Positions 2,960 through 52,380 of a DNA stretch of 64,000 nt are shown in pieces. A model generated the notes under the pieces. It saw only the letters and a program-made list of their open reading frames with translations. It was not told the DNA's origin and did no database searches. The position numbers were made by a program, and so were the translations under genes. Position 1 is the stretch's first letter, and every line of letters begins with the position of its first letter. Origin of the DNA: Apoda limacodes (taxonomy: Eukaryota > Arthropoda > Insecta > Lepidoptera > Limacodidae); the NCBI GenBank assembly GCA_946406115.1, contig OX291547.1, forward strand, positions 19,907,001 through 19,971,000, read 5' to 3'.

Positions 2960-2968
2960 ATATTTTGG
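2960..2968 (+). repeat. Left copy of 9-bp target-site duplication
   Basis: atattttgg lies immediately outside the left inverted-repeat tip (accggtgtgaag) and is repeated exactly at 21361-21369 outside the right tip (cttcacaccggt). The direct match is exactly nine bases; the bases on either side differ. A length of nine is characteristic of Mutator-like (MULE) DNA transposons. Confidence 0.9.
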
Positions 2969-5900
2969 ACCGGTGTGAAGTTAGCAGCCAAATTTAGCAG
3001 CCATTATAATCCGACCAAATTAAAGAGTCTGAAAAACCAACATCAAAATCAGGTAAAACAACTTATAGTTATAAGAAATATATAGTATATACAGTATATT
3101 TCACTTAAAAATAAAAAAAAAACACTTGTGCCCAGACGAAATGGCTGATAGACACAGAAATCAAATTTTAATAACATTAATTGGTAGTGCTCATTCAGCG
3201 ATAAAAACTAAGGTCTAGTCGATCGACTGACGTGATGTGACTGTATTTATCAGAATAAATGCATTAAAATTACTTAGGCAGGGGACTAGGATACTACAGA
3301 AGCTAAAAACCAAAAAAAAATTTTTTTGGCTGCTGTCCAATTTGACATCGATCTCGATTGACTGACACGTTGCCATTATATATACGCAAAAGTATATTGA
3401 GACTCCAAAAATAGATATTTTCCAGGTCTTGAGAAGAGGCGTATAGTACAAATACTGAGAAAACACACAGTAACAAAATATCAAACAAGTTTTATACCGC
3501 AATAGTTTGGCTGCTGGTACATAAGTCAAAGTTTTTGAACAACTGACATGTTCATCTATTTTTTTTTCATAGATCAATATACAATCAATCTAAAACAATT
3601 GATTGGAGTTACTAATATTATGTAATATTAATTTGTGAGCATTTTTTCCTACAAGTAGGTAACAAAAGTCAACCCATTAAAGTTTATCGTTGAAAAAAAA
3701 GTCCTAGACGATCGACTGACGTCATGTGATCACTTTTATTTTGTGTGTTAGTTACAGACGTACTAAAAAAAATACATTAAAATCACTTAGCCAGGGGACT
3801 ACAGTATCAGGGACTGGGAAAACTGAAAACAGCAATTAATTTTGGCTGATATCGAATATTTTATTTTGTTTTAATATTTCACCCAATTATTCTAAGTTTT
3901 CATCAAATAAATATTTATATGGTGAACCCTTACGTCACAAAAAAAACTTGTGCGAAGATCAAATGGCTGATAGGCACAAAAAAAAATTTTTAATAACATT
4001 AATTGGTAGTGCTCATTCAGCGATAAAAACTAAGGTCTAGTCGATCGACTGACGTGATGTGACTGTATTTATTTTATGTATATTTTAATAATCTATTAGA
4101 ATAAATGCATTAAAATTACTTAGGCAGGGGACTAGGATACTACAGAAGCTAAAAACCAAAAAAAAATTTTTTTGGCTGCTGTCCAATTTGACATCGATCT
4201 CGATTGACTGACACGTTGCCATTATATATACGCAAAAGTTTATTGAGACTCCAAAAATAGATATTTTCCAGGTCTTGAGAAGAGGCGTATAGTACAAAAA
4301 CTGAGAAAACACATAGTAACAAAATATCAAACAAGTTTTGTACCGCAATAGTTTGGCTGCTGGTAAAAAAGTCAAAGTTTTTGAACAACTGACATGTTCA
4401 TCTATATTTTTTTCATAGATCAATATACAATCAATCTAAAACAATTGATTGGAGTTACTAATATTATGTAATATTAATTTGTGAGCATTTTTTCCTACAA
4501 GTAGGTAACAAAAGTCAACCCATTAAAGTTTATCGTTGAAAAAAAAGTCCTAGACGATCGACTGACGTCATGTGATCACTTTTATTATGTGTGATTGGTT
4601 ACAGACGTACTAAAAAAAATACATTAAAATCACTTAGGCAGGGGACTACAGTATCAGGGACTGGGAAAACTGAAAACAGCAATTAATTTTGGCTGATATC
4701 GAATATTTTATTTTGTTTTAATATTTCACCCAATTATTCTAAGTTTTCATCAAATAAATATTTATATGGTGAACCCTTACGTCACAAAAAAAACTTGTGC
4801 GAAGATCAAATGGCTGATAGGCACAAAAAAAATTTTTAATAACATTAATTGGTAGTGCTCATTCAGCAATAAAAACTAAGGTCTAGTCGATCGACTGACG
4901 TGATGTGACTGTATTTATTTTATGTATATTTTAATAATCTATTAGAATAAATGCATTAAAATTACTTAGGCAGGGGACTAGGATACTACAGAAGCTAAAA
5001 ACCAAAAAGATATTTTTTGGCTGCTTTCCAATTTGACATCGATCTCGATTGACTGACACGTTGCCATTATATATACGCAAAAGTTTATTGAGACTCCAAA
5101 AATAGATATTTTCCAGGTCTTGAGAAGAGGCGTATAGTACAAAAACTGAGAAAACACATAGTAACAAAATATCAAACAAGTTTTGTACCGCAATAGTTTG
5201 GCTGCTGGTAAAAAAGTCAAAGTTTTTGAACAACTGACATGTTCATCTATTTTTTTTTCATAGATCAATATACAATCAATCTATAACTATTGATTGGAGT
5301 TACTAATATTATGTAATATTAATTTGTGAGCATTTTTTCCTACAAGTAGGTAATAAAAGTCAACCCATCAAAGTTTATCGTTGAAAAAAAAGTCCTAGAC
5401 GATCGACTGACGTCATGTGATCACTTTTATTATGTGTGATTGGTTACAGACGTACTAAAAAAAATACATTAAAATCACTTAGGCAGGGGACTACAGTATC
5501 AGGGACTGGGAAAACTGAAAACAGCAATTAATTTTGGCTGATATCGAATATTTTATTTTGTTTTAATATTTCACCCAATTATTCTAAGTTTTCATCAAAT
5601 AAATATTTATATGGTGAACCCTTACGTCACAAAAAAAACTTGTGCGAAGATCAAATGGCTGATAGGCACAAAAAAAAATTTTTAATAACATTAATTGGTA
5701 GTGCTCATTCAGCGATAAAAACTAAGGTCTAGTCGATCGACTTACGTGATGTAACTGTATTTATTTTATGTATATTTTAATAATCTATTAGAATAAATGC
5801 ATTAAAATTACTTAGGCAGGGGACTAGGATACTACAGAAGCTAAAAACCAAAAAGATATTTTTTTGGCTGTTGTCCAATTTGACATCGATCTCGATTGAC

Positions 5901-8900
5901 TGACACGTTGCCATTATATATACGCAAAAGTTTATTGAGACTCCAAAAATAGATATTTTCCAGGTCTTGAGAAGAGGCGTATAGTACAAAAACTGAGAAA
6001 ACACATAGTAACAAAATATCGAAACAAGTTTTGTACCGCAATAGTTTGGCTGCTGGTAAAAAATACAAAGTTTTTGAACAACTGACATGTTCATCTATTT
6101 TTTTTTCATAGATCAATATACAATCAATCTAAAACAATTGATTGGAGTTACTAATATTATGTAATATTAATTTGTGAGCATTTTTTCCTACAAGTAGGTA
6201 ACAAAAGTCAACCCATTAAAGTTTATCGTTGAAAAAAAAGTCCTAGACGATCGACTGACGTCATGTGATCACTTTTATTTTGTGTGTTAGTTACAGACGT
6301 ACTAAAAAAAATACATTAAAATCACTTAGGCAGGGGACTACAGTATCAGGGACTGGGAAAACTGAAAACAGCAATTAATTTTGGCTGATATCGAATATTT
6401 TATTTTGTTTTAATATTTTACCCAATTATTCTAAGTTTTCATCAAATAAATATTTATATGGTGAACCCTTACGTCACAAAAAAAACTTGTGCGAAGATCA
6501 AATGGCTGATAGGCACAAAAAAAAATTTTTAATAACATTAATTGGTAGTGCTCATTCAGCGATAAAAACTAAGGTCTAGTCGATCGACTGACGTGATGTG
6601 ACTGTATTTATTTTATGTATATTTTAATAATCTATTAGAATAAATGCATTAAAATTACTTAGGCAGGGGACTAGGATACTACAGAAGCTAAAAACCGAAA
6701 AGATATTTTTTGGCTGCTTTCCAATTTGACATCGATCTCGATTGACTGACACGTTGCCATTATATATACGCAAAAGTTTATTGAGACTCCAAACATAGAT
6801 ATTTTCCAGGTCTTGAGAAGAGGCGTATAGTACAAATACTGAGAAAACACATAGTAACAAAATATCAAACAAGTTTTGTACCGCAATAGTTTGGCTGCTG
6901 GTAAAAAAGTCAAAGTTTTTGAACAACTGACATGTTCATCTATTTTTTTTTCATAGATCAATATACAATCAATCTATAACTATTGATTGGAGTTACTAAT
7001 ATTATGTAATATTAATTTGTGAGCATTTTTTCCTACAAGTAGGTAATAAAAGTCAACCCATCAAAGTTTATCGTTGAAAAAAAAGTCCTAGACGATCGAC
7101 TGACGTCATGTGATCACTTTTATTATGTGTGATTGGTTACAGACGTACTAAAAAAAATACATTAAAATCACTTAGGCAGGGGACTACAGTATCAGGGACT
7201 GGGAAAACTGAAAACAGCAATTAATTTTGGCTGATATCGAATATTTTATTTTGTTTTAATATTTCACCCAATTATTCTAAGTTTTCATCAAATAAATATT
7301 TATATGGTGAACCCTTACGTCACAAAAAAAACTTGTGCGAAGATCAAATGGCTGATAGGCACAAAAAAAAATTTTTAATAACATTAATTGGTAGTGCTCA
7401 TTCAGCGATAAAAACTAAGGTCTAGTCGATCGACTTACGTGATGTGACTGTATTTATTTTATGTATATTTTAATAATCTATTAGAATAAATGCATTAAAA
7501 TTACTTAGGCAGGGGACTAGGATACTACAGAAGCTAAAAACCAAAAAGATATTTTTTTGGCTGTTGTCCAATTTGACATCGATCTCGATTGACTGACACG
7601 TTGCCATTATATATACGCAAAAGTTTATTGAGACTCCAAAAATAGATATTTTCCAGGTCTTGAGAAGAGGCGTATAGTACAAAAACTGAGAAAACACATA
7701 GTAACAAAATATCGAAACAAGTTTTGTACCGCAATAGTTTGGCTGCTGGTAAAAAATACAAAGTTTTTGAACAACTGACATGTTCATCTATTTTTTTTTC
7801 ATAGATCAATATACAATCAATCTAAAACAATTGATTGGAGTTACTAATATTATGTAATATTAATTTGTGAGCATTTTTTCCTACAAGTAGGTAACAAAAG
7901 TCAACCCATTAAAGTTTATCGTTGAAAAAAAAGTCCTAGACGATCGACTGACGTCATGTGATCACTTTTATTTTGTGTGTTAGTTACAGACGTACTAAAA
8001 AAAATACATTAAAATCACTTAGGCAGGGGACTACAGTATCAGGGACTGGGAAAACTGAAAACAGCAATTAATTTTGGCTGATATCGAATATTTTATTTTG
8101 TTTTAATATTTTACCCAATTATTCTAAGTTTTCATCAAATAAATATTTATATGGTGAACCCTTACGTCACAAAAAAAACTTGTGCGAAGATCAAATGGCT
8201 GATAGGCACAAAAAAAAATTTTTAATAACATTAATTGGTAGTGCTCATTCAGCGATAAAAACTAAGGTCTAGTCGATCGACTGACGTGATGTGACTGTAT
8301 TTATTTTATGTATATTTTAATAATCTATTAGAATAAATGCATTAAAATTACTTAGGCAGGGGACTAGGATACTACAGAAGCTAAAAACCGAAAAGATATT
8401 TTTTGGCTGCTTTCCAATTTGACATCGATCTCGATTGACTGACACGTTGCCATTATATATACGCAAAAGTTTATTGAGACTCCAAACATAGATATTTTCC
8501 AGGTCTTGAGAAGAGGCGTATAGTACAAATACTGAGAAAACACACAGTAACAAAATATCAAACAAGTTTTATACCGCAATAGTTTGGCTGCTGGTACATA
8601 AGTCAAAGTTTTTGAACAACTGACATGTTCATCTATTTTTTTTTCATAGATCAATATACAATCAATCTAAAACAATTGATTGGAGTTACTAATATTATGT
8701 AATATTAATTTGTGAGCATTTTTTCCTACAAGTAGGTAACAAAAGTCAACCAATCAAAGTTTATCGTTGAAAAAAAAGTCCTAGACGATCGACTGACGTC
8801 ATGTGATCACTTTTATTTTGTGTGTTAGTTACAGACGTACTAAAAAAAATACATTAAAATCACTTAGGCAGGGGACTACAGTATCAGGGACTGGGAAAAC

Positions 8901-10714
8901 TGAAAATAGCAATTAATTTTGGCTGATATCGAATATTTTATTTTGTTTTAATATTTCACCCAATTATTCTAAGTTTTCATCAAATAAATATTTATATGGT
9001 GAACCCTTACGTCACAAAAAAAACTTGTGCGAAGATCAAATGGCTGATAGGCACAAAAAAAAATTTTTAATAACATTAATTGGTAGTGCTCATTCAGCGA
9101 TAAAAACTAAGGTCTAGTCGATCGACTTACGTGATGTAACTGTATTTATTTTATGTATATTTTAATAATCTATTAGAATAAATGCATTAAAATTACTTAG
9201 GCAGGGGACTAGGATACTACAGAAGCTAAAAACCAAAAAGATATTTTTTTGGCTGTTGTCCAATTTGACATCGATCTCGATTGACTGACACGTTGCCATT
9301 ATATATACGCAAAAGTTTATTGAGACTCCAAAAATAGATATTTTCCAGGTCTTGAGAAGAGGCGTATAGTACAAAAATTGAGAAAACACATAGTAACAAA
9401 ATATCAAACAAGTTTTGTACCGCAATAGTTTGGCTGCTGGTAAAAAAGTCAAAGTTTTTGAACAACTGACATGTTCATCTATTTTTTTTTCATAGATCAA
9501 TATACAATCAATCTATAACTATTGATTGGAGTTACTAATATTATGTAATATTAATTTGTTAGCATTTTTTCCTACAAGTAGGTAACAAAAGTCAACCCAT
9601 CAAAGTTTATCGTTGAAAAAAAAGTCCTAGACGATCGACTGACGTCATGTGATCACTTTTATTTTGTGTGCTAGTTACAGACGTACAAAAAAAATACATT
9701 AAAATCACTTAGGCAGGGGACTACAGTATCAGGGACTGGGAAAACTGAAAACAGCAATTAATTTTGGCTGATATCGAATATTTTATTTTGTTTTAATATT
9801 TCATCCAATTATTCTAAGTTTTCATCAAATAAATATTTATATGGTGAACCCTTACGTCACAAAAAAAACTTGTGCGAAGATCAAATGGCTGAAAGGCACA
9901 AAAAAAATTTTTAATAACATTAATTGGTAGTGCTCATTCAGCGGTAAAAACTAAGGTCTAGTCGATCGACTGACGTGATGTGACTGTATTTATTTTATGT
10001 ATATTTTAATAATCTATTATAATAAATGCATTAAAATTACTTAGGCAGGGGACTAGGATACTACAGAAGCTAAAAACCAAAAAGATATTTTTTGGCTGCT
10101 TTCCAATTTGACATCGATCTCGATTGACTGACACGTTGCCATTATATGTACGCAAAAGTTTATTGAGACTCCAAAAATAGATATTTTCCAGGTCTTTAGA
10201 AGAGGCGTATAGTACAAATACTGAGAAAACACACAGTAACAAAATATCAAACAAGTTTTATACCGCAATAGTTTGGCTGCTGGTACATAAGTCAAAGTTT
10301 TTGAACAACTGACATGTTCATCTATTTTTTTTTCATAGATCAATATACAATCAATCTAAAACAATTGATTGGAGTTACTAATATTAAGTAATATTAATTT
10401 GTGAGCATTTTTTCCTACAAGTAGGTAACAAAAGTCAACCCATTAAAGTTTATCGTTGAAAAAAAAGTCCTAGACGATCGACTGACGTCATGTGATCACT
10501 TTTATTTTGTGTGTTAGTTACAGACGTACTAAAAAAAATACATTAAAATCACTTATGCAGGGGACTACAGTATCAGGGACTGGGAAAACTGAAAACAGCA
10601 ATTAATTTTGGCTGATATCGAATATTTTATTTTGTTTTAATATTTCACCCAATTATTCTAAGTTTTCATCAAATAAATATTTATATGGTGAACCCTTACG
10701 TCACAAAAAAAAAA
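2969..10714 (+). repeat. Left inverted arm: nine tandem ~846-bp units
   Basis: The marker 'aggtctagtc' recurs at 3211, 4033, 4879, 5725, 6572, 7418, 8265, 9110 and 9954, giving spacings of 822, 846, 846, 847, 846, 847, 845 and 844. The first spacing is short because the outermost unit lacks 24 bp. Units are nearly identical, differing by scattered substitutions and homopolymer changes. Each unit holds two related boxes (gatcgactgacgt ... aggcaggggacta) about 514 bp apart, one with the palindrome TGACGTCA. The terminal 156 bp before the first unit are unique to the tip. The array stops at a unit boundary, where the non-LTR element begins. Confidence 0.92.
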
Positions 10715-10739
10715 GCACCAGATTACTTATAATAGAAAT

Positions 10740-11761
10740 ATGAGATGGTTAAATAATATAACTACAAAATTCCAAAATGTTTCCTTGCAAAAAGAGATAA
10801 AATCGTGTGAACAATTATTACAAACAAACAAAAGAGAAATAAACACCATGAGTAACACGATAAATCAGCTTCTGCGGTCCCTTGAAGAAGTTGGTAGTAA
10901 ATATGAACTCGCTTGTAAAGACATACAGGAGTATGCATCTGCGTTTGATGAGCTCACCGAATCGGGCAATTCGAACATGGATCGCTTACAGTCTCTAACA
11001 GAGAAGGGTGCATTTAACCTTACTACTGACAGTAATGCTAGCTTATGTGAGCACACTTGTTGCAAAAAGAAAAAATAAAGACAACAAATTCATTCGATAT
11101 TTCTACCAGAGGACCACAATATTTCTGCGCCAGTCAATTCTCGTAATATTAATGATTCTAAAAAACCTTTACCTTTGCCGAAAACAAGAATTATATCTGA
11201 TAAACTAGGGAAAGGCTTAGGTTCTCTCCTGTGTAATTATTTGGACCATAATGTGATAAATATGTGTACTCCGGGTATTACATTCAATAGTTTGATAAGA
11301 AACATTGACGTGAATAAACTAAATAGTCACACTACTCTAGTCATCTTGTTTGGAGATAGCATGAGCCTGAGAAAAAAAGACTTGACTACAGGCATTAATT
11401 ATTTAGTTCAAGTTCAAGAGAAATCGAAGTGTAGATTTATTATCTGCGATTTTCCATATTCTATTAGCTTAACCACAAACAGAACAATTATATATCAGAC
11501 TTAAATGTGCGTTTGTATAATTTAACTTATTGTTATAGTGACATTTTTACTTATTTAGATGTTAATAAATTTATACATAATTTTAAACTTAATTGGGGCA
11601 ATATGAATATGCCCATGAAATGCAGACGTCTCCTTGCTAAGTTGATAGCACATAATATACAAAATGTAAATTCAGGTTTAAAAGAGCAGTGCAAGGGACC
11701 TGATTCTCATGCATTAAATTACTTTAGTAATGGTAATATTTCAAATCTACCTTTAAACTAA
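10740..11761 (+). pseudogene. Non-LTR ORF1 (coiled coil plus GDS-like domain), broken
   Basis: The frame from 10740 gives a heptad-rich segment (TINQLLRSLEEVGSKYELA), a usual ORF1 oligomerisation region. It hits one stop at 11076 and then continues in the same frame through a lysine/proline linker into a second domain containing VILFGDSMSL and FIICDFPYS. That domain resembles the SGNH/esterase-like domain in ORF1 of CR1-type elements. A frameshift near 11485 moves the remainder (DLNVRLYNL) to another frame, ending at 11761. Two lesions over about 340 codons show decay but recent enough for the domains to be readable. The GDS assignment is by motif only. Confidence 0.6.
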
Positions 11762-11766
11762 ATAAC

Positions 11767-12804
11767 ATGACAATAAGTAAGCTCGATCATTTTAATATTG
11801 TCCACCAGAATTTACAGGGCTTACTTGGCAAAGAATTAGAAATCGACCTGTTTCTAAATAGTTACAATATTCATATCTTATGCTTAACTGAGCATTGGCT
11901 TCAAAAGCATCAATTAGCTTTAAATTTCTTAAATTACTGTAGTGCTAGTAACTTTGTCAGAAAGTCAGCCGTACGTGGTGGCTCATTAATTCTTTTAAAA
12001 ACTTGTATGAAATTTAAAGAACGCAAAGACATATTAGCATTATCAATTGAACGTATTATTGAAATATCTTGTGTTGAACTGGAACATTTAATAGTTATTT
12101 GTTTATACCGCCCTCCCTCCTCAATCTATAGTCAATTTGAAACTGTAATGGAGGACGCATTAAGGATAGTGTCATCTAGCAAAAAACATATTATAGTATG
12201 TGGCGACTTTTATGTTAACATACTTGAAAAATCACCAACTTCTTTACGATTGATAAATCTGTTTAAATGTTTTGACCTCATTAACCTGTTTTACGAACCA
12301 ACCAGAATCACTGCTACTTCTGAAACATGTCTTGACAATGTATTTTGCAATTGTGATGTTGTGGAGAAATCTATTATTACTAATCTTTCTTCAGATCACT
12401 GTGGCCAAAAGCTGTCCCTATATAATAATAATTTAAAGAAAATATCTAATTTTAAAACTTGTATTCCTATGACACATTCTCGCTTAGATCGCTTTAAAGA
12501 GAACATAAATAATAAGATATACTCTTTTCAATTCCCATACGATAACCCAAATGATAATTATAGTTATCAATTTTATTTTATAAAACACGAGTTTGACCAA
12601 ATTTTTAAAACAAAGCTAGTTAAAGAAAACAGTAATTTAAAATTTAGTGACTGGGCCACAGTTGGTATTTATAAAAGTAGAGAAAAACTTTATGAATTAT
12701 ATGACTTAAAAAAATATAATCATGTACCATCTTTCGTTGAATACGTGAAAAATACTCTAAACTGTTTAAAAAAGTATGTAGGGCTGCTAAATCAAAGTAC
12801 TTAA
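11767..12804 (+). pseudogene. Non-LTR APE-type endonuclease, 5' part of ORF2
   Basis: A 345-residue frame carries the exonuclease-endonuclease-phosphatase signatures in order: NIVHQNLQGL near the N-terminus, LTEHW, YRPPSS, GDFYVN and SDHCGQ. This domain nicks target DNA to prime reverse transcription. The usual GDFNVN motif has tyrosine in place of the active-site asparagine, which should impair catalysis. The frame is lost near 12780 by a frameshift; the other frame continues directly with AAKSKYLSDKIRCSKNKI, the linker before the RT. This start follows ORF1 by 5 bp. Confidence in the family is high, and it is non-functional here. Confidence 0.8.
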
Positions 12805-14599
12805 GTGATAAAATTAGATGTTCTAAGAATAAAATCAAGGCAACTTGGAATATTATCAAGAATGAAACCGGTAAAATTACGAATCCACTTAAAAAAGACT
12901 TTAGAATTAAGGTTGACGGTAGAATAATAAAAACAGATACTGATGTCGCAAATGCCTTTGAAAAGTTCTTTACTAACATACCTATGACGACAACAAACTC
13001 AGTAATTTCTTCGTCTTTAAAAGCCCTAACAATTTTAAAAAGACATATAAATTTAAATAATATTTGATTCAAATTTAAACATGTAACGCCAATAGACATA
13101 GTTAAAGCTTATCAATCGCTGAACTTTAAAAATACTAAAGATTTGTGGGGTTTATCAGTTAATGTTCTAAATGGAATTATAGACGCATTAGCTCCTTTTT
13201 TGGCAGTTATCTTTAATAAATGTCTAGACGATGGTGTATTCCCTGATTTAATGAATATTAGTATGATAATACCACTTTTTAAATCTGGTAGCACAAAAGA
13301 ACTTAATAATTTTAGACCCATTTCTATTTTGCCTGCACTCAGTAAGATTTTTGAAAAAATTATATTAAATCAACTATTGCAATACTTCACTACAAATAAA
13401 TTATTTCATAGTGAACAATATGGTTTTACAAAAGGTCGCTCAACTACTGATGCAGGTGTATCATTAATGATGCACATATTCTCAGCTTGGGAAAATCATC
13501 AAAATCCAATTGGAGTCTTTTGCGACCTATCCAAGACTTTCGACTGCGTCGAACATGAAACTCTTACTCGCAAATTAGAATATTACGGTGTTAAAGAATC
13601 TGCACTTGATCTTATATCTTCTTACCTAAGTTGCAGAACACAAATAGTTGACATAAATGATACAAAATCCTCAGGATCAGTAGTGGTAATGAGGGTTCCA
13701 CAAGGATCGATATTGGGACCGTATTTGTTCTTGGTATATATTAACGGTTTGCCTTATTTTGCTGAAAAATTTTGTCAAGTCGTTTTGTTTGCTGATGACA
13801 CGTCCTTAATATTTAATGCTGATAGGAAAAAAGTAAACTATGACGATGTCAATGACGCCTTATCGGCAACACTTAATTGGTTTGAAGTAAACAATCTTTT
13901 GCTTAATTCCAAAAAAACCAAGTGCATCAAATTTGCTTTACCGAATGTTCGAGACCTTTACACTAAATTAATCTTAAATGGAGACAGTTTAGATTTGATA
14001 GATTCAACTATGTTTCTGGGCGTCACATTAGATCCCAAACTGCAATGGAATACACATATCTCTACACTTGCTGGAAAACTTAGCTCAGCTGCCTTCTCTG
14101 TTAAGAAAGTCAGACAATTAACTAATTCTGAAACTGCCCGCTTAGTTTATTTTAGTTATTTTCACAGCATCATGTCATATGGAATTCTGTTGTGGGGCAG
14201 AGCAGCTGATATAGAGTCAATTTTCATATTACAAAAAAGAGCTATTAGGTCTATCTATAACTTGAAATTTCGGGATTCCCTCAGAGAACTTTTTAAGAAC
14301 ATCGGCAAATTTATGCAAATATAATGTATGTTCGTAGAAACTTGCACTTGTACTATAAAAAAAGCGATGTACACAGTGTTAATACACGAAATAAACATAA
14401 ATTAATAGATGTTACTAGTCGTCTTCAAAAAATTAACAATTCTTTTGTCGGGCAGTGTGTACGCTTTTATAACAAGATCCCACAGACTACCCTGAACTTG
14501 CCTTTACATCAATTTAAATCTACAATTAAATGTCATTTGATACAGGGAAGGTATTACACTGTTGAAGAGTTTTTAAATGACAAGAATAATTGGACTTAA
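12771..14599 (+). pseudogene. Non-LTR reverse transcriptase, 3' part of ORF2
   Basis: After a linker with stops (12785-13095), the RT frame runs from 13143. It shows FRPISILPALSKIFEK, QYGFTKGRSTTDA, a motif A variant (FCDLSKTFDCVEHETL), PQGSILGPYLFLVYING and the catalytic FADDTSLIF. C-terminal motifs YGILLWG and LQKRAIRSIYNL follow. A frameshift at about 14300 shifts the last part to another frame (14324-14599, ending with NDKNNWT). Comparison with the homologous reading at 59775-60265 (ending NDKNPWD) confirms the junction, where a few codons are altered or lost. It is inactive because of frameshifts, although the catalytic YADD-type motif is intact. Confidence 0.85.
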
Positions 14600-14913
14600 C
14601 CAACTTTTTTTTTTGACATGTTTCGTGCAACATTTAAATAGATAATAGTTTTTTTTTGACATAATTTTATATTTGTAACTTGACTTAAGATTCTGCTATT
14701 TTATTTTGACATATATAATTTTACTATTTGTATTTAATTTAAACTTCAGTTTTTTTTGTGGTAGTTATTACCTACTTATTTATGTTTTATTGTTCTTAAT
14801 TTTATTTGTATTGTTTTGCTTTTTAAGTACATACATCTACTTTTATTTAAAAATTGACATGTAAAAGCGCTTTAAAGCCTACTTTCTGAATAAATAAATG
14901 AAATGAAATGAAA

Positions 14914-15345
14914 TTGTCATAGCCCGTCGTTGAACCGAGTGAAAAGGGTCTAGCTGGTATCCGGGTGCGCCCGCCCAGAGATGGCAGCATTTCTCCATAT
15001 GGGGCGGAACTTGCGACTTGTAAAGCAGCAACCTCTGCCCCGAAGTGCAGTACTGCTTCGCTCTGTTCAGTACACCCAGTTTTTTGGACGCCAGCTTGTT
15101 TAGCAAATTATCTCGGAACTGAACATCGCTGAAGATGGGAACACCAAGGATCCTAATGCTCTTGGAGATAGAGATCCCTCTCTATGTTGTGTTCTGGATT
15201 TGTGGGACCACAGTAAATGGGATTTACTTAGTGGTGAACGCGCACACTTATATCTTAGTAGGGTTGAATCGGACCAAGTTTTCCCGTCCCCAGTCAAAGG
15301 CCTTGGACCGAGTGGTCTCGATTTGAGATACAAGTTAATGTTAAT
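14914..15345 (-). pseudogene. Relic of a second non-LTR RT family
   Basis: The minus strand reads ENLVRFNPTK, then FRDNLLNKLASKKLGVLNRA, SGQRLLLYKSQ and CCHLWAGAPGYQL. These match the 3' RT region of the abundant lepidopteran family also present at 36828-37353 and 56515-57085. Two or more in-frame stops lie in the upstream part. It abuts the tail of the element ending at 14913 and lies downstream of the Ulp1 gene. Both are probably later insertions into the core of the giant transposon. Confidence 0.7.
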
Positions 15346-15412
15346 GCGTAAGCAGGTTTTTTAATGTCAGGGTGTTTATTATACTCTGTAGCTTATTGCC
15401 TAGCATAACATT

Positions 15413-16228
15413 CTAGTGTTGTGCTAAACATAGGTCACAGTATGCTTGTTGACTTTTGTTTAATGCTGTCATACCTTGTTTTAGTTCATCGTGGGTAAGC
15501 AAACACGAATTATGTATCTTTCTCTCACATGATGAACATTTATAAAAGTTTATTACTGCTTGTCGCCCACAAAATAAACATAACTCTTTCATATCATCAC
15601 TATTTTGCAACAGTTTTATTTTCAGTTCAGATCGATATTTATCAAAGTCTTTCTTATTATTCAGACTGCCTTTGTTAATTATTTGTTCAAAAAAATACAT
15701 TAAAATTGGTCCACAATTGTAATTGTCTTGTTGAAATATGTGATCTAAGGTTTTTATTTTAATTTCTTTTGTCAACATATGTTTGATTTTTAAAAAGTCT
15801 TCTATTTTCTTTTTATAATATTTTTCTAGTTTCTTCTCTCTTCCCATTGGATCAATAATAGTAATTATCATTTGATTAACAGACAACCATACCATCGTGT
15901 AGTGGTCGTATTTGCATATCGGAAATACTGTGTCTTTAGCTGTCGTCACTTTTATCCCATTAATGAATTCTTCAGATAATTGAGTTTCACTAAAAATTAG
16001 ATAAGATTTTTCTACACTTACAAAATCATACTTGTTTTTATTAATTATTTGTAAAAGGTGGTCAATTACAAAACTTGACACATATTCTTTCTTATTCAAA
16101 GTAAAAAAATCATCTGATAACAGATGTGTCACAGAATGCTTCACACTCTTTTGACACGTGACTATGTATCCGCGTTCACTTTTCAAAGGCTTATAATAGT
16201 TATAATCGTCCATTAATCCATTCATCAT
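15413..16228 (-). CDS. Ulp1/C48 SUMO-protease-like protein with PHD-like finger
   Basis: The open frame runs from 16396, but its first 56 codons start without ATG and read through the inner edge of the right tandem array. The first ATG pair is at 16228, giving 271 residues. In full-frame numbering the Ulp1-type catalytic set is His165 (YDHYTMVWLS), Asp182 (IIDPMG), Gln222 and Cys228 (FQQDNYNCGP), with the usual spacing. A C-terminal finger has Cys273, Cys276, Cys287, Cys290, His295, Cys298, Cys320 and Cys323, a C4HC3 PHD-type arrangement. Known relatives cleave SUMO-like modifiers, and Ulp1 domains ride on several transposon superfamilies, including Mutator-like ones. It is intact and is the only undamaged gene in the transposon core. 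Alternatively, an upstream exon could splice in from the repeat unit, which would place the promoter in the array. Actual protease activity is inference. Confidence 0.8.
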   Translation of the reverse strand: MMNGLMDDYNYYKPLKSERGYIVTCQKSVKHSVTHLLSDDFFTLNKKEYVSSFVIDHLLQIINKNKYDFVSVEKSYLIFSETQLSEEFINGIKVTTAKDTVFPICKYDHYTMVWLSVNQMIITIIDPMGREKKLEKYYKKKIEDFLKIKHMLTKEIKIKTLDHIFQQDNYNCGPILMYFFEQIINKGSLNNKKDFDKYRSELKIKLLQNSDDMKELCLFCGRQAVINFYKCSSCERKIHNSCLLTHDELKQGMTALNKSQQAYCDLCLAQH

Positions 16229-16290
16229 TACGTTTTTATTTTGTTGAAAACAATAATTTGATTGGATTATTTCTTGATTTTGACAATTTC

Positions 16291-19200
16291 TGTTTTCAGT
16301 TTTCCCAGTCCCTGATACTGTAGTCCCCTGCCTAAGTGATTTTAATGTATTTTTTTTAGTACGTCTGTAACTAACACACAAAAAAAAAGTGATCACATGA
16401 CGTCAGTCGCCCGTCTAGGACTTTTTTTCATCGATAAACTTTAATGGGTTGATGTTTGTTACCTACTTGTAGGAAAAATGCTCACAAATAAATATTACAT
16501 ATTATAAGTTTAGATTTATTGTATATTGATCTATGAAAAAAAAATAGATGTCAGTTGTTCAAAAACTTTGACTTTTTTACCAGCAGCCAAACTATTGCAG
16601 TACAAAACTTGTTTGATATTTTGTTCCTATGTGTTTTCTCAGTTTTTGTACTATACGCCTCTTCTCAAGACCTGGAAAATATCTATTTTTGGAGTCTCAA
16701 TAAACGTTCCCGTATATATAATAGCAACGTGTCACTCAATCGAGATCGATGTCAAATTAGACAGCAGCCAAAAAAATATCTTTTTAGTTTTTAGCTTCTG
16801 TAGTATCCTAGTCCCCTGCCTAAGTAATTTTAATGCATTTATTCTGATAGATTATTAAAATATACATAAAATAAATACAGTCACATCACGTCAGTTGATC
16901 GATTAGACCTTAGTTTTTACCGCCGAATGAGCACTACCAATTAATGTTATTAAAAAATTTTTTTTGTGCCTATCAGCCATTTGATCTTCGCACAAGTGTT
17001 TTTTTGTGACGTAAGGGTTCACCATATAAATATTTATTTGATGAAAACTTAGAAAAATTGGGTGAAATATTAAAACAAAATAAAAAATTCGATATCAGCC
17101 AAAATTAATTGCTGTTTTCAGTTTTCCCAGTCCCTGATACTGTAGTCCCCTGCCTAAGTGATTTTAATGTATTTTTTTTAGTACGTCTGTAACTAACACA
17201 CAAAATAAAAGTGATCACATGACGTCAGTCGATCGTCTAGGACTTTTTTTTCAAAGATAAACTTTAATGGGTTGACGTTTGTTACCTACTTGTAGGAAAA
17301 AATGCTCACAAATGAATATTACATATTATAAGTAACCCCAAACCATAAGTTTAGATTGATTGTATATTGATCTATGAAAAAAAAATAGATGAACATGTCA
17401 GTTGTTCAAAAAATTTGACTTATGTACCAGCAGCCAAACTATTGCGGTATAAAACTTGTTTGATATTTTGTTACTGTGTGTTTTCTCAGTATTTGTACTA
17501 TACGCCTCTTCTCAAGACCTGGAAAATATCTATTTTTGGAGTCTCAATAAACTTTTGCGTATATATAATGGCAACGTGTCAGTCAATCGAGATCGATGTC
17601 AAATTGGAAAGCAGCCAAAAAATATCTTTTTGGTTTTTAGCTTCTGTAGTATCCTAGTCCCCTGCCTAAGTAATTTTAATGCATTTATTCTAATAGATTA
17701 TTAAAATATACATAAAATAAATACAGTCACATCACGTCAGTCGATCGACTAGACCTTAGTTTTTACCGCTGAATGAGCACTACCAATTAATGTTATTAAA
17801 AATTTTTTTTTGTGCCTTTCAGCCATTTGATCTTCGCACAAGTGTTTTTTTGTGACGTAAGGGTTCACCATATAAATATTTATTTGATGAAAACTTAGAA
17901 TAATTGGGTGAAATATTAAAACAAAATAAAATATTCGATATCAGCCAAAATTAATTGCTGTTTTCAGTTTTCCCAGTCCCTGATACTGTAGTCCCCTGCC
18001 TAAGTGATTTTAATGTATTTTTTTTAGTACGTCTGTAACTAACACACAAAATAAAAGTGATCACATGACGTCAGTCGATCGTCTAGGACTTTTTTTTCAA
18101 CGATAAACTTTGATTGGTTGACTTTTGTTACCTACTTGTAGGAAAAAATGCTCACAAATTAATATTACATAATATTAGTAACTCCAATCAATTGTTTTAG
18201 ATTGATTGTATATTGATCTATGAAAAAAAAATAGATGAACATGTCAGTTGTTCAAAAACTTTGACTTATGTACCAGCAGCCAAACTATTGCGGTATAAAA
18301 CTTGTTTGATATTTTGTTACTATGTGTTTTCTCAGTTTTTGTACTATACGCCTCTTCTCAAGACCTGGAAAATATCTATTTTTGGAGTCTCAATAAACTT
18401 TTGCGTATATATAATGGCAACGTTTCAGTCAATCGAGATCGATGTTAAATTGGAAAGCAGCCAAAAAATATCTTTTTGGTTTTTAGCTTCTGTAGTATCC
18501 TAGTCCCCTGTCTAAGTAATTTTAATGCATTTATTCTAATAGATTATTAAAATATACATAAAATAAATACAGTCACATCACGTCAGTCGATCGACTAGAC
18601 CTTAGTTTTTACCGCTGAATGAGCACTACCAATTAATGTTATTAAAAATTTTTTTTTGTGCCTTTCAGCCATTTGATCTTTGCACAAGTTTTTTTTGTGA
18701 CGTAAGGGTTCACCATATAAATATTTATTTGATGAAAACTTAGAATAATTGGGTGAAATATTAAAACAAAATAAAATATTCGATATCAGCTAAAATTAAT
18801 TGCTGTTTTCAGTTTTCCCAGTCCCTGATACTGTAGTCCCCTGCCTTAGTGATTTTAATGTATTTTTTTTAGTACGTCTGTAACTAACACACAAAATAAA
18901 AGTGATCACATGACGTCAGTCGATCGTCTAGGACTTTTTTTTCAACGATAAACTTTGATGGGTTGACTTTTGTTACCTACTTGTAGGAAAAAATGCTAAC
19001 AAATTAATATTACATAATATTAGTAACTCCAATCAATAGTTATAGATTGATTGTATATTGATCTATGAAAAAAAAATAGATGAACATGTCAGTTTTTAAA
19101 AAACTTTTATTTTTTTACCAACAGCCAAACTATTGCGGTACAAAACTTGTTTGATATTTTGTTCCTATGTGTTTTCTCAGTTTTTGTACTATACGCCTCT

Positions 19201-21360
19201 TCTCAAGACCTGGAAAATATCTATTTTTGGAGTCTCAATAAACTTTTGCGTATATATAATGGCAACGTGTCAGTCAATCGAGATCGATGTTCAAATTGGA
19301 CAACAGCCAAAAAAATATCTTTTTGGTTTTTAGCTTCTGTAGTATCCTAGTCCCCTGCCTAAGTAATTTTAATGCATTTATTCTAATAGATTATTAAAAT
19401 ATACATAAAATAAATACAGTCACATCACGTCAGTCGATCGACTAGACCTTAGTTCTTATCGCTGAATGAGCACTACCAATTAATGTTATTAAAAATTTTT
19501 TTTTGTGCCTATCAGCCATTTGATCTTCGCACAAGTTTTTTTTTGTGACGTAAGGGTTCACCATATAAATATTTATTTGATGAAAACTTAGAATAATTGG
19601 GTGAAATATTAAAACAAAATAAAATATTCGATATCAGCCCAAATTAATTGCTGTTTTCAGTTTTCCCAGTCCCTGATACTGTAGTCCCCTGGCTAAGTGA
19701 TTTTAATGTATTTTTTTTAGTACGTCTGTAACTAACACACAAAATAAAAGTGATCACATGACGTCAGTCGATCGTCTAGGACTTTTTTTTCAACGATAAA
19801 CTTTGATTGGTTGACTTTTGTTACCTACTTGTAGGAAAAAATGCTCACAAATTAATATTACATAATATTAGTAACTCCAATCAATTGTTTTAGATTGATT
19901 GTATATTGATCTATGAAAAAAAAATAGATGAACATGTCAGTTGTTCAAAAACTTTGACTTATGTACCAGCAGCCAAACTATTGCGGTATAAAACTTGTTT
20001 GATATTTTGTTACTGTGTGTTTTCTCAGTATTTGTACTATACGCCTCTTCTCAAGACCTGGAAAATATCTATGTTTGGAGTCTCAATAAACTTTTGCGTA
20101 TATATAATGGCAACGTGTCAGTCAATCGAGATCGATGTCAAATTGGAAAGCAGCCAAAAAATATCTTTTCGGTTTTTAGCTTCTGTAGTATCCTAGTCCC
20201 CTGCCTAAGTAATTTTAATGCATTTATTCTAATAGATTATTAAAATTTACATAAAATAAATACAGTCACATCACGTCAGTCGATCGACTAGACCTTAGTT
20301 TTTATCGCTGAATGAGCACTACCAATTAATGTTATTAAAAATTTTTTTTTGTGCCTATCAGCCATTTGATCTTCGCACAAGTTTTTTTTGTGACGTAAGG
20401 GTTCACCATATAAATATTTATTTGATGAAAACTTAGAATAATTGGGTAAAATATTAAAACAAAATAAAATATTCGATATCAGCCAAAATTAATTGCTGTT
20501 TTCAGTTTTCCCAGTCCCTGATACTGTAGTCCCCTGCCTAAGTGATTTTAATGTATTTTTTTTAGTACGTCTGTAACTAACACACAAAATAAAAGTGATC
20601 ACATGACGTCAGTCGATCGTCTAGGACTTTTTTTTCAACGATAAACTTTAATGGGTTGACTTTTGTTACCTACTTGTAGGAAAAAATGCTCACAAATTAA
20701 TATTACATAATATTAGTAACTCCAATCAATTGTTTTAGATTGATTGTATATTGATCTATGAAAAAAAAATAGATGAACATGTCAGTTGTTCAAAAACTTT
20801 GACTTATGTACCAGCAGCCAAACTATTGCGGTATAAAACTTGTTTGATATTTTGTTACTGTGTGTTTTCTCAGTATTTGTACTATACGCCTCTTCTCAAG
20901 ACCTGGAAAATATCTATTTTTGGAGTCTCAATATACTTTTGCGTATATATAATGGCAACGTGTCAGTCAATCGAGATCGATGTCAAATTGGACAGCAGCC
21001 AAAAAAATTTTTTTTTGGTTTTTAGCTTCTGTAGTATCCTAGTCCCCTGCCTAAGTAATTTTAATGCATTTATTCTGATAAATACAGTCACATCACGTCA
21101 GTCGATCGACTAGACCTTAGTTTTTATCGCTGAATAAGCACTACCAATTAATGTTATTAAAATTTGATTTCTGTGTCTATCAGCCATTTCGTCTGGGCAC
21201 AAGTGTTTTTTTTTTTATTTTTAAGTGAAATATACTGTATATACTATATATTTCTTATAACTATAAGTTGTTTTACCTGATTTTGATGTTGGTTTTTCAG
21301 ACTCTTTAATTTGGTTGGATTATAATGGCTGCTAAATTTGGCTGCTAACTTCACACCGGT
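16291..21360 (-). repeat. Right inverted arm: five full and one partial ~846-bp unit
   Basis: The inverse marker 'gaccttag' recurs at 16906, 17752, 18598, 19445, 20291 and 21112 (spacings 846, 846, 847, 846, 821). The innermost unit is cut mid-unit at ctgttttcag (16291) and joins the Ulp1 frame. The outermost unit lacks the same 24 bp as the outermost left unit, and the last ~160 bp mirror the left tip. Inner units are more diverged: the innermost lacks several bases seen elsewhere and has cgcccg for cgatcg. At about 5.1 kb, this arm is much shorter than the 7.7-kb left arm. Confidence 0.92.
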
Positions 21361-21369
21361 ATATTTTGG
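21361..21369 (+). repeat. Right copy of 9-bp target-site duplication
   Basis: atattttgg directly follows the right tip cttcacaccggt and matches 2960-2968 exactly. Confidence 0.9.
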
Positions 21370-21970: not shown

Positions 21971-22019
21971 ATTGTTGAGATTTCCAATGGCGAAATAATT
22001 AAAATGTCAGAATTCTCAT

Positions 22020-31089: not shown

Positions 31090-31615
31090 ATATTTCAATG
31101 GGTTCCTGGGGGTAACCGGTAGGTGGCGCTGCAGTCGGTGTGTCACTGATCGTCTTTTAAACAGCAGATTTTAATGATATTTTTTGTGTACGGTCGAGTA
31201 GGTCCCTGCAAGGTTTAAAATTAACTAATGGACCCAATAGATGGCGATGCAGTTAGTTTGTCACTGATTTCCTCCTAAACGGCAGGGATGATTTTATTAA
31301 TTTTTTTTTTGTGTACGTACGAATGGGTCTCAGCAAGGTTTGAATACACGAATGGACCTGGTAGGTGCCGCTGTAGTTGGTGTGTTCCTGATCTAAACGG
31401 CAGGGATGATTATATTGCTATATTTTGTGTACGTTCGAGTGGGTCCCTGCAATGTTCGAAAACACAATTGGAACTGGTAGTTAGCGCTGCAGTAGGTGTG
31501 TCACTGATTTAAACGGCAGAAAGGATTTTAATGATGTTTTTTGAGTACGTTCGAGTTGGTCCCTGCAGGGTTTGATAACACAATTAGACCCGGTAGGTGG
31601 CGCTAGAGCTAGGAG
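31090..31615 (+). repeat. Minisatellite, four ~115-125-bp units plus a partial
   Basis: Each unit carries taggtggcgctgcagtcggt, gtgtcactgat, aaacggcagggatgatttta, tttttgtgtacgttcgagt and gggtccctgcaaggtt. Unit starts are near 31121, 31245, 31362 and 31477, ending near 31605. It is tandem and diverged, with no coding evidence. Confidence 0.75.
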
Positions 31616-36827: not shown

Positions 36828-37353
36828 TATCTGCCATCTCTGGGCAGGTGCACCCGGATTCCAGCTTGGCCCTTTTAACTCGGTTCAACGACGGGCTGTG
36901 AGAATTGTCGACGATTCCAAACTCACTTGCGGTATCGAGCCCTTAAGTCTGAGGAGAGACTTTTCCTCACTGTGTGTGTTCTACCGCTTGAACAATGGGT
37001 TGTGTTCTGAGAATTGTTCGAAATGATGCCCACGGCTACTTTCTACCATCGCACCGCTCGCCATCGGCAGGGAATTCATTCTCACACTTTAGAACCTAAA
37101 TGGTTGCGTACAGTGCGGTTTCAGAGAAACTTCCTCCCGCGAACGCATAAGTAGTGGAATGAGCTCCCTACCAAGGTTTTCTGCATGGACTACAGTATGG
37201 AGTTCTTCAAGAAAGAAGTTATTAGATTTCTGAAGGGTCGGCAACGCGCAAGTGATACCCCTGGTGTTGCAAGCGTCCATAGGCGACGGTGACCGCTTCC
37301 CATCAGGCGGACCGTAAGCTTGTTTGCCACCTTAGTGGTATTAAAAAAAAAAA
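36828..37353 (+). pseudogene. 5'-truncated non-LTR element, RT C-terminus and tail
   Basis: The plus strand reads HLWAGAPGFQLGPF, RRAVRIVDDSKLTCGIEPLS, RRDF and HRQGIHSHT across frameshifts. It continues to RLW-like NELPTK and a 3' UTR gtgttgcaagcgtccatagg … gccaccttagtggtat with an A tail at 37340-37353. It matches the copy at 56515 closely, so both derive from one family that was active fairly recently. Confidence 0.75.
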
Positions 37354-40639: not shown

Positions 40640-40830
40640 TTTTTTTTTTTTTTTTTTTATACCACTAAGGTGGCAAACAAGCACACGGTCCGCCTGATGG
40701 TAGGCGGTCACCGCGGCCTATGGACGCTTGTAACACCAGAGGTATCACTCGCACGTTGCCAACCCTTCAAAAATCCAATAACTTATTTCTTGAAGAACCC
40801 CATACTGTTATACCCACACCATAATTTTAG
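40640..40830 (-). mobile_element. Non-LTR 3' end, minus strand
   Basis: A poly-T run (40637-40658) is followed by ataccactaaggtggcaaac, the inverse of the tail at 37320-37345. 'caataacttatttcttgaag' is the inverse of the ORF2 end. It is severely 5'-truncated. Confidence 0.75.
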
Positions 40831-46784: not shown

Positions 46785-47345
46785 TATTTTTATACAAAAA
46801 AGAGTTAACTGACTGACTGGTTGTGATTACTGATACTTTTAGGTCTAGTTACCTGAAATTTTCACAAAGGTTTATGTTATAAAAAACTAAGAAAGGATTT
46901 TGTAAAAATCACCCCAATGCCTACCTCAGGGGATAAAAAAGGGGTTGCTAGTTGGTTTGGAAACCCGTCATTTTATAATCTGAATGCATAAAAATTAGTA
47001 TATGGCCTTTACGTTGAAAATCGAGATTAACATGTTTCATTGTTTTAAGACATCATACCTTAGAGAAGGTAAATAGTGGTTGAAAATTTGTATGGAAATC
47101 CGTTATTTTTGGCCTTAGGATCAAATTTAAAATTAAAGCTTTTATTCGTTTTTATGAAGATTATCCCCTAGAGAGCAAATAGGGGATAAATAGATATTTA
47201 TATATCCCCTAGAGAGCAAATAGGGGATAAATAGATATTTATATATAAAAGTTCCGATATTTTTGTAGGTAAATACCATTATCAGTTAAAAGCTTTCTTT
47301 TCTTTTCAAAAGTTAACGCGGACGAAGTCGCAGTAATAAGCTAGT
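46785..47345 (+). repeat. Copy of the 39470-type repeat with a 41-bp tandem duplication
   Basis: It shares ctaagaaaggattttgtaaa, 'ctgaatgcataaaaattag', ttatcccctagagagcaaat agggg and the end cgcggacgaagtcgcag with the array at 39470. Within it, 47162-47202 is repeated exactly at 47203-47243. Confidence 0.65.
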
Positions 47346-51824: not shown

Positions 51825-52380
51825 GCAGTTATTTGTCACCGCACGAGGACACATCCTCCATCCACAACCTTAGGGAATAAAGGCTTAGACCATAGTCCAC
51901 CACACCGGCCAAGTGCCTAACAGAATTTTCAAGCCGCCCATAAGGCTGCTGACTTAGGTTAATAACAGCTGCTGTCATATGGTCATGTGACAATCAGGAC
52001 AACAGCCAGGTTCGATGGTTTAACGTGCCCTACAAAGTGCGAAGGTGCTCAGAAAAATGCGTTTGATCCCCACCGACAGACTGAACGGCGGGGAATTTCA
52101 AGCGTTTTTTTCCACGGTGTGCCTTGCGGAACTGAGAGCGTTCTTTTTCGCAGGGCACAACTAGTAACGCTTAGGTTGTGGAATGAGCTCCTTGCCAAGG
52201 TTTTCTCTAAGTGCTACAGAACGGGGTTTATCAAGAAATAAGTTATTAGATTTTTGCAGGGTTGGCAACGTGCGAGTGATGCCCTAGGTGTTGCAAGCGT
52301 CTATAAGCTGCAGTAACAGCTAACCATCAGGCGGGCCGTAAACTTGTTTGCCACCTCATGTTTATGGCATAAAAAACTAA
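51825..52380 (+). repeat. SINE fragment followed by a non-LTR 3' end
   Basis: 51830-51930 resembles the distal part of the 42450 SINE (cttagaccatagtccaccac). 52085-52241 then reads LVTLRLWNELLAKVFSK, the ORF2 end of the 56515 family, followed by gtgttgcaagcgtctataag and cttgtttgccacctcatg. Both are decayed copies. Confidence 0.6.

Follow-up and report, generated by a model that had tools for sequence, protein, structure and literature searches.

How does a transposable element come to carry many kilobases of inverted tandem repeats at its ends, and what moves it? The reason why foldback elements have long tandem-repeat arms is an open question, and it is raised again by an 18.4-kb element in the genome of the moth Apoda limacodes (Limacodidae). 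The element lies within a 64,000-nucleotide stretch (GCA_946406115.1, contig OX291547.1, positions 19,907,001 to 19,971,000, forward strand), to which we refer as the window. We consider it probable that the element is a non-autonomous foldback-type DNA transposon, related to NOF through a transposase remnant, with arms that likely supply extra transposase-binding sites, and that it is moved in trans by cut-and-paste.

Architecture of the Window Element

The element spans positions 2969 to 21360 and consists of two inverted arms enclosing a core at 10713 to 16284. It opens with ACCGGTGTGAAG, the reverse complement of which ends at 21360.

2960..2968, no strand: left target-site duplication, ATATTTTGG, read directly from the sequence
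2969..3115, plus strand: left tip, 147 bp, starting with ACCGGTGTGAAG; its first 56 bp are kept in a sister family (see below)
3116..10712, plus strand: left arm, nine tandem units of ~846 bp, from sequence alignment
16285..21212, minus strand: right arm, 5.9 inverted units of ~846 bp, from sequence alignment
21214..21360, minus strand: right tip, 147 bp, matching the left tip at 99.3% identity, from sequence alignment
21361..21369, no strand: right target-site duplication, ATATTTTGG, read directly from the sequence

A preliminary description of this DNA had reported the matching tips, the nine ~846-bp units, five full and one partial inverted units, and the 9-bp duplication; each of these is exact to the base, with the right arm amounting to 5.9 units. 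In this copy, the first left-arm unit is 824 bp. The arms measure 5.1 and 7.7 kb, of which the arrays make up 4.9 to 7.6 kb per arm beyond the 147-bp tip, and left and right arms are 97.1% identical over 5,109 columns. Tandem Repeats Finder output lacks the 846-bp arrays because the longest period allowed was 500.

Copies, Target Duplications, and Empty Sites

The first 200 bases of the element were compared with the same assembly (800 Mb, 31 contigs), and 40 of the 757 first-look candidates were taken through to scoring. Every one of these 40 was a strong match, aligned over 182 or more of the 200 query bases with 93 to 100% identity, and the counts given here are therefore lower bounds; one additional (41st) row was a partial match of 55 bases. 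Thirty-four of the 40 matches pair as inverted ends, defining at least 17 elements with lengths from 2,543 bp to 24.2 kb (the upper value being taken from match coordinates), while six are without a partner among the matches listed. Thirteen pairs were read whole (the window copy and 12 others), four were read through their ends only, and a 14th copy, C12_1944, was read from one end.

Target duplications accompany nearly all of the pairs. A perfect 9-bp duplication flanks 13 of the 17, including C2_3803, which was scored as perfect despite the loss of 6 to 9 left-tip bases; the copy at C2:29.88 Mb has a perfect 8-bp duplication, C7_3038 and C12_1047 each have one mismatch in 9 bp, and C1_780 has none. 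The paired copies thus show the ~9-bp duplication of the Mutator-like element (MULE) superfamily. They also show the foldback design, namely, inverted arms of tandem repeats in variable number (0.3 to 9 units per arm across the 14 copies examined, with one arm only for C12_1944) in a mobile, multi-copy element.

Uninterrupted insertion sites complete this picture. Copy C1_1732 is inserted in a short dispersed repeat, three copies of which lie in the window. When the C1_1732 flanks are joined with the 9 bp kept once, they align without gaps to window positions 40643-40807 (90%), 37193-37353 (88%), and 52217-52356 (78%), as well as to two other loci; a third locus aligns too, with a gap of 4 bases away from the site. 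The site is present singly in each window repeat, as TCACTCGCA twice and TCACTTGCG once, compared with TCACTCGCT in C1_1732; these 9-mers are one or two letters off, in line with the divergence among the repeats themselves. This is the signature expected from insertion with a 9-bp staggered cut. For the window copy, a search of the joined flanks that was confined to the window and the other loci examined, and was not genome-wide, gave no spanning match. The window element is thus a real, multi-copy transposon, and the further copies by which the preliminary description proposed to check it exist, as do empty sites for one of them.

Two copies show irregularities. C1_780, the sole pair of the 17 without a target duplication, is possibly a recombinant of two copies; its core holds an additional frame resembling a reverse transcriptase. 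In the left flank of C2_1035 (L016:493-2004, C2), a perfect 295-bp inverted duplication is followed by a second, oppositely oriented tip, beside which this 9-bp site recurs as its reverse complement; either the foldback element has undergone a palindromic rearrangement here or the assembly is at fault.

A Sister Family and the NOF-Like Transposase

The window copy is non-autonomous, with a core made up of a nested long interspersed nuclear element (LINE), a fragment of a second LINE, and the C terminus of a NOF-like transposase. The 18-kb DNA transposon of the preliminary description is hence a genuine mobile element but one without a whole transposase, retaining just the following remnant along with the nested LINEs.

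15416..16285, minus strand: NOF-like transposase gene remnant (P0001), comprising a C-terminal C48-like protease region and zinc finger, from protein comparison

P0001 starts within arm sequence and continues into the C48-like and zinc-finger region; it is free of stops but represents the C-terminal part only, and the DDE part is absent. A direct protein search with P0001 found no homologue at an E value of ≤0.001 among 1,382 candidates, and Pfam yields only subthreshold zinc-finger and protease-like matches. The region is 39% identical to P0006 (E = 7e-61), a protein with Peptidase_C48 (2.2e-10), PHD (4.7e-08), and YqaJ (1.4e-16) domains, and P0001 is 42 to 43% identical to transposases of a sister family, family 2, in the same genome, which has long open frames of up to 1,241 amino acids. 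The connection of P0001 to NOF is indirect and runs through family 2. All protein domains mentioned here were assigned from sequence.

Family 2 is represented by a 20,047-bp copy at C5:25972566-25992612. Its tip starts with ACCGGTGTGAAGTTAGCGGCC and is 89% identical to the window tip over the first 57 columns, and a perfect 9-bp duplication, AAAAACGGA, flanks the element. Its arms consist of 15.2 and 14.2 units of 331 bp that, beyond short words, are unrelated to the 846-bp unit. Arrays of the 331-bp unit were found at the predicted place in all four additional family-2 copies sampled. The core of the C5 copy contains the transposase gene as an inverted duplicate (L041:903-4297, minus strand, and 4888-8610, plus strand; 99.6% identical over 4.3 kb), of which one is open and encodes the 1,241-amino-acid P0002, while the other has no start and is split into two frames.

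A search with residues 400 to 1000 of P0002 retrieved 16 proteins at an E value of ≤0.01; among them are the NOF-FB 120.7-kDa protein of Drosophila (E = 9.7e-11) and two proteins of the weevil Ceutorhynchus assimilis. Residues D490, D565, and E783 are aligned and invariant in six of six sequences, NOF among them, and from the motif positions we infer that they form the catalytic triad. A PHD finger, a trait of Rehavkus elements, falls at residues 882 to 936 of P0002 (E = 4.1e-05; 23.9 bits against a cutoff of 24), upstream of the point at which the window remnant begins. The THAP domain, a trait of Galileo and the P superfamily, has no Pfam match in P0002, which has PHD and C1 matches instead. 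The assignment of the element to FB-NOF or Rehavkus relatives, originally made from its ends, is supported by proteins as well as by shape. The copy C24_504 retains more pieces of a broken transposase, including a weak Pfam MULE match (E = 0.043). As a separate observation, a YqaJ-like nuclease domain occurs in some NOF-like transposases, such as P0006, where it lies between the PHD finger and the C48 region, and P0008 (from precomputed annotation).

Tip Words within Arm Units

The conserved ~56-bp end contains two direct repeats of the word (G/T)TTAGC(A/G)GCC, and one form of this word recurs in the units of each family. AGCAGCC occurs in 80 of 81 family-1 units (143 sites) versus none of 29 family-2 units. 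Conversely, GTTAGCGGC occurs once per unit in all 29 family-2 units, and AGCGGCC is absent from all 81 family-1 units. In the 846-bp unit, AGCAGCC sits within TTTGGCTGCT, a word that the 7.6-kb left arm contains 15 times and window positions 22001 to 64000 not at all.

Shuffling of majority-letter units indicated that this sharing is in excess of chance. For family 1, the tip and its own unit share 11 8-mers versus 2.5 expected with window units (2 of 1,000 shuffles reach 11) and 10 versus 2.7 expected with the majority from all 81 units (8 of 1,000). For family 2, the counts are 7 versus 1.0 (2 of 1,000); the family-2 arm consensus varies at one base, and a single-unit version of the test agrees. 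Crossed pairs of tip and unit are at chance, with 1 versus 1.1 (593 of 1,000) and 3 versus 2.5 (441 of 1,000). The Galileo transposase binds the tandem repeats of its own element in vitro (PMC3688188), and on this analogy the arms are predicted to be amplified transposase-binding sites.

How the Arms Change

Comparison of 81 units (matches over 780 bp) from the copies read revealed that units are more alike within a copy (97.0%, 280 pairs) than between copies (95.5%, 2,960 pairs), and 58 of the 81 have their closest match within their own copy. Unit number changes as well. Four copies share an insertion of one LINE, LINE B. On one side of it they contain ~3.3, 4.3, 3.3, and 7.2 units, and on the opposite side three of them contain 7.2, 3.2, and 3.2; because the insertion is shared while unit numbers differ, these numbers must have changed after the common ancestor.

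The two arms of a copy also resemble each other. Across the outer 700 bp of 12 copies (C24_504 being excluded owing to its short arms), the mean distance between left and right arms is 0.039 within copies versus 0.057 for all pairings, a value as low as which was reached in none of 10,000 permutations, and a copy's own partner arm is the nearest in 6 of 12. The effect is small for the 147-bp tips (0.0141 versus 0.0190; permutation, 0.0044). We read this as probable exchange of sequence between the arms of one copy.

Proposed Mechanism and Its Main Rival

We propose that a NOF-like transposase, supplied in trans, would recognize the conserved ~56-bp tip and move the window element by cut-and-paste. 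Each unit would repeat part of the tip signal (AGCAGCC within TTTGGCTGCT for the 846-bp unit and GTTAGCGGC for the 331-bp unit), and the arrays would raise the number of transposase molecules bound per end. Unequal exchange or repair slippage would lengthen and shorten the arrays, gene conversion, which the inverted layout would favor, may homogenize the two arms of a copy, and LINEs landing in the core or in a unit would travel along as passengers. A bolder extension, which we offer tentatively and would not rate above a possibility, is that the arm unit of each family is an independently recruited satellite, chosen to hold that family's recognition word, amplified to tens of sites, and homogenized between arms, so that any shift in transposase specificity would be matched by a shift of unit (AGCAGCC units accompany TAGCAGCC tips, and TAGCGGC units accompany TAGCGGCC tips).

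Several observations weigh against the proposal of transposase-binding arms served in trans. No intact family-1 transposase was found in a genome search with P0001, in which 122 of 492 candidates were scored and same-family copies at 60 to 96% identity all contained stops; the mover of the window family may be extinct, or it may be the diverged sister protein. For the MULE DDE transposase that the preliminary description proposed to look for, P0002 is a candidate, its D-D-E residues aligning with those of NOF; the Pfam MULE model, weak on the C24 fragment, has no match on P0002. The 7-mer version of the word test is weak in family 1, at 18 versus 10.1 expected (31 of 1,000 shuffles) for window units and 52 of 1,000 for all 81. 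The longer 13-mer of the family-2 tip, GTTAGCGGCCTAA, is present in just 16 of 29 family-2 units, and the orientation of the motif relative to the tip is opposite between the two families. When the comparison is confined to the 147-bp tips, just 2 of 13 copies have their own partner arm as the nearest. Finally, the words shared by tip and unit may stem from descent, with the unit born of tip sequence, and carry no function.

According to the main rival explanation, only the ~56-bp tip matters and a subterminal segment with chance tip-like words was tandemly duplicated and has since drifted by unequal exchange. In favor of such passive arrays, the tip is conserved between families whose units are unrelated, and the short-armed copies C24_504 (0.3 and 0.8 units; perfect 9 bp) and C7_3038 (0.3 units on one side; one mismatch) still have 9-bp target duplications. 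These copies could, however, have lost units after insertion. Moreover, two unrelated units each bear the word of their own tip and not that of the other family, and the arrays recur in all five family-2 copies examined. On balance, we regard passive arrays as the less likely alternative.

Nested LINEs in the Core and Arms

Much of the core between the arms is retrotransposon sequence, and the following features were distinguished.

10713..14915, plus strand: LINE A, a nested non-long-terminal-repeat retrotransposon, 5'-truncated by the arm, from Pfam and the insertion point in other copies
10713-11501, plus strand: LINE A, open reading frame 1 (ORF1) pieces
11737-12801, plus strand: LINE A, endonuclease
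13068-14321, plus strand: LINE A, reverse transcriptase; LINE A 3' end placed within a few bases
14916..15330 (far limit approximate), minus strand: fragment of a second LINE, the target of LINE A insertion, from the ORF at 14882-15181 and judged a LINE by eye

LINE A has Pfam matches to RVT_1 (3.5e-33) and Exo_endo_phos_2 (1.1e-06), and neither its ORF1 piece at 11079-11501 nor the ORF at 14882-15181 has a Pfam match. We took the fragment at 14916-15330 for another LINE from its appearance. C24_504 carries a LINE-A-free, uninterrupted counterpart of the insertion site. Many named relatives of LINE A, among the 120 of 2,344 matches listed, come from butterflies and moths. Separately, reverse transcriptases labeled Listeria welshimeri or Pseudomonas aeruginosa (P0020, P0044, P0053, P0059, and P0078) are 62 to 67% identical to the window LINE, which suggests that those records contain insect DNA.

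In four copies, an 846-bp unit is interrupted by LINE B, a relative of LINE A. The LINE B junctions lie at identical unit positions, the 3' junction having been read in all four copies and the 5' junction in three; C1_1443 is without the final part of the LINE. A ~6-bp TTTAAT repeat is present at the junctions read in C1_1732. LINE B is abundant and dispersed, since 39 of 40 scored matches (from 1,548 first-look candidates) fall outside the 17 paired elements. Because of this abundance, and because the junctions show ordinary nested insertions, we take the LINEs as nested passengers and not as machinery of the element.

The opposite notion, that a reverse transcriptase mobilizes the whole composite, draws on the presence of LINE A or B sequence in 10 of the 14 copies analyzed. 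It is very improbable in view of the LINE B matches elsewhere, the single nested insertion point of each LINE with its LINE-free counterpart, and the four copies that lack both LINEs (C24, C7_3038, C11, and C1_3297), which keep the same tips and 9-bp duplications, one with a mismatch. We therefore rejected the LINE as a part of the machinery after the genome search and inspection of the junctions. An inverted array made or expanded by the assembler is to be expected hardly at all: long inverted tandem repeats are difficult to assemble, and the 100% identical 295-bp inverted duplication flanking C2_1035 could be such a product, but the window units differ mutually (nearest pairs, 97.6 to 99.9%), the target duplications match, and the same design occurs at many independent loci and in a second family.

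Relation to Known Elements

The FB element of Drosophila melanogaster has inverted arms of tandem repeats, a 9-bp duplication, and units of tens of base pairs, unlike the 846- and 331-bp units here. P0002 is nevertheless homologous to the NOF-FB protein, with aligned D-D-E residues, although NOF itself has no PHD or C48 domain by Pfam at an E value of ≤0.1.

Rehavkus elements are described as having a 9-bp duplication, a single ORF with a PHD finger, and repeats beside the terminal inverted repeat (TIR), with TIRs of 26 to 400 bp and a minisatellite only before the 3' TIR (PMC6446971). In the elements described here, both multi-kilobase arms are arrays. Because they lie outside the tabulated TIR range, which sets them apart from Rehavkus as described there, we place the element among NOF relatives only, outside Rehavkus.

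Other foldback elements are closer in design. Tetris of Drosophila virilis has ~220-bp units, TIRs of up to 1.7 kb, and no known transposase, and amplification of binding sites has been proposed for it (PMC4079207). It likewise has a variable number of tandem units in its TIRs, a unit that shares a stretch with the outer TIR, and 8- to 10-bp duplications (PMC4079207). The present elements differ from it in their 846- or 331-bp units, in arm length (5.1 and 7.7 kb for the window copy), and in the candidate transposase that the sister family encodes. The preliminary description had units in known relatives as much shorter; this holds for FB but not always, as Tetris demonstrates. Galileo has long, internally repetitive TIRs with binding sites, some in repeats, mapped by footprinting and electrophoretic mobility shift assays; its TIRs measure 0.5 to 1.2 kb, and conservation between species is confined to ~40 bp at the ends (PMC3688188). 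It belongs to the P superfamily, with another DNA-binding domain and shorter TIRs than here. Tm1 of root-knot nematodes (Mutator/Foldback) resembles the present elements in its composite TIRs with variable tandem-repeat number and its mostly 9-bp duplications, and some members have a putative transposase, but its units are 13 to 15 bp (PMC3169594). Tetris and Galileo are nearest in design, and NOF is the nearest named protein.

The foldback architecture (FB-NOF, Tetris, and Galileo) is already known, as is the general idea that repeated arms can carry binding sites. No NOF- or Rehavkus-type elements with units above ~220 bp were seen in the open-licence literature searched, and within that literature, the unit size, the existence of two families side by side, and the word shared by tip and unit look new. 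The elements here reach 24.2 kb, exceeding the maxima of 10.0 kb in length and 1,193 bp in TIR given by a survey of arthropod MULEs, with Rehavkus included as an outgroup only (PMC13359780). They also illustrate how a predicted cut-and-paste element can disperse satellite-like arrays and nested LINEs. For Galileo, binding to the repeats has been shown in vitro, while for Foldback and Phantom elements, the same paper calls it untested (PMC3688188). Apoda limacodes provides a natural swap experiment in this regard: one genome contains two sister families with near-identical tips, unrelated units, a one-letter difference in the word, and an open transposase frame.

Elsewhere in the window, further tandem repeats occur at 31118-31604 (116-bp unit, 4.1 copies), 47162-47246 (41-bp unit, 2.1 copies, perfect), and 62673-62950 (144-bp unit, 1.9 copies).

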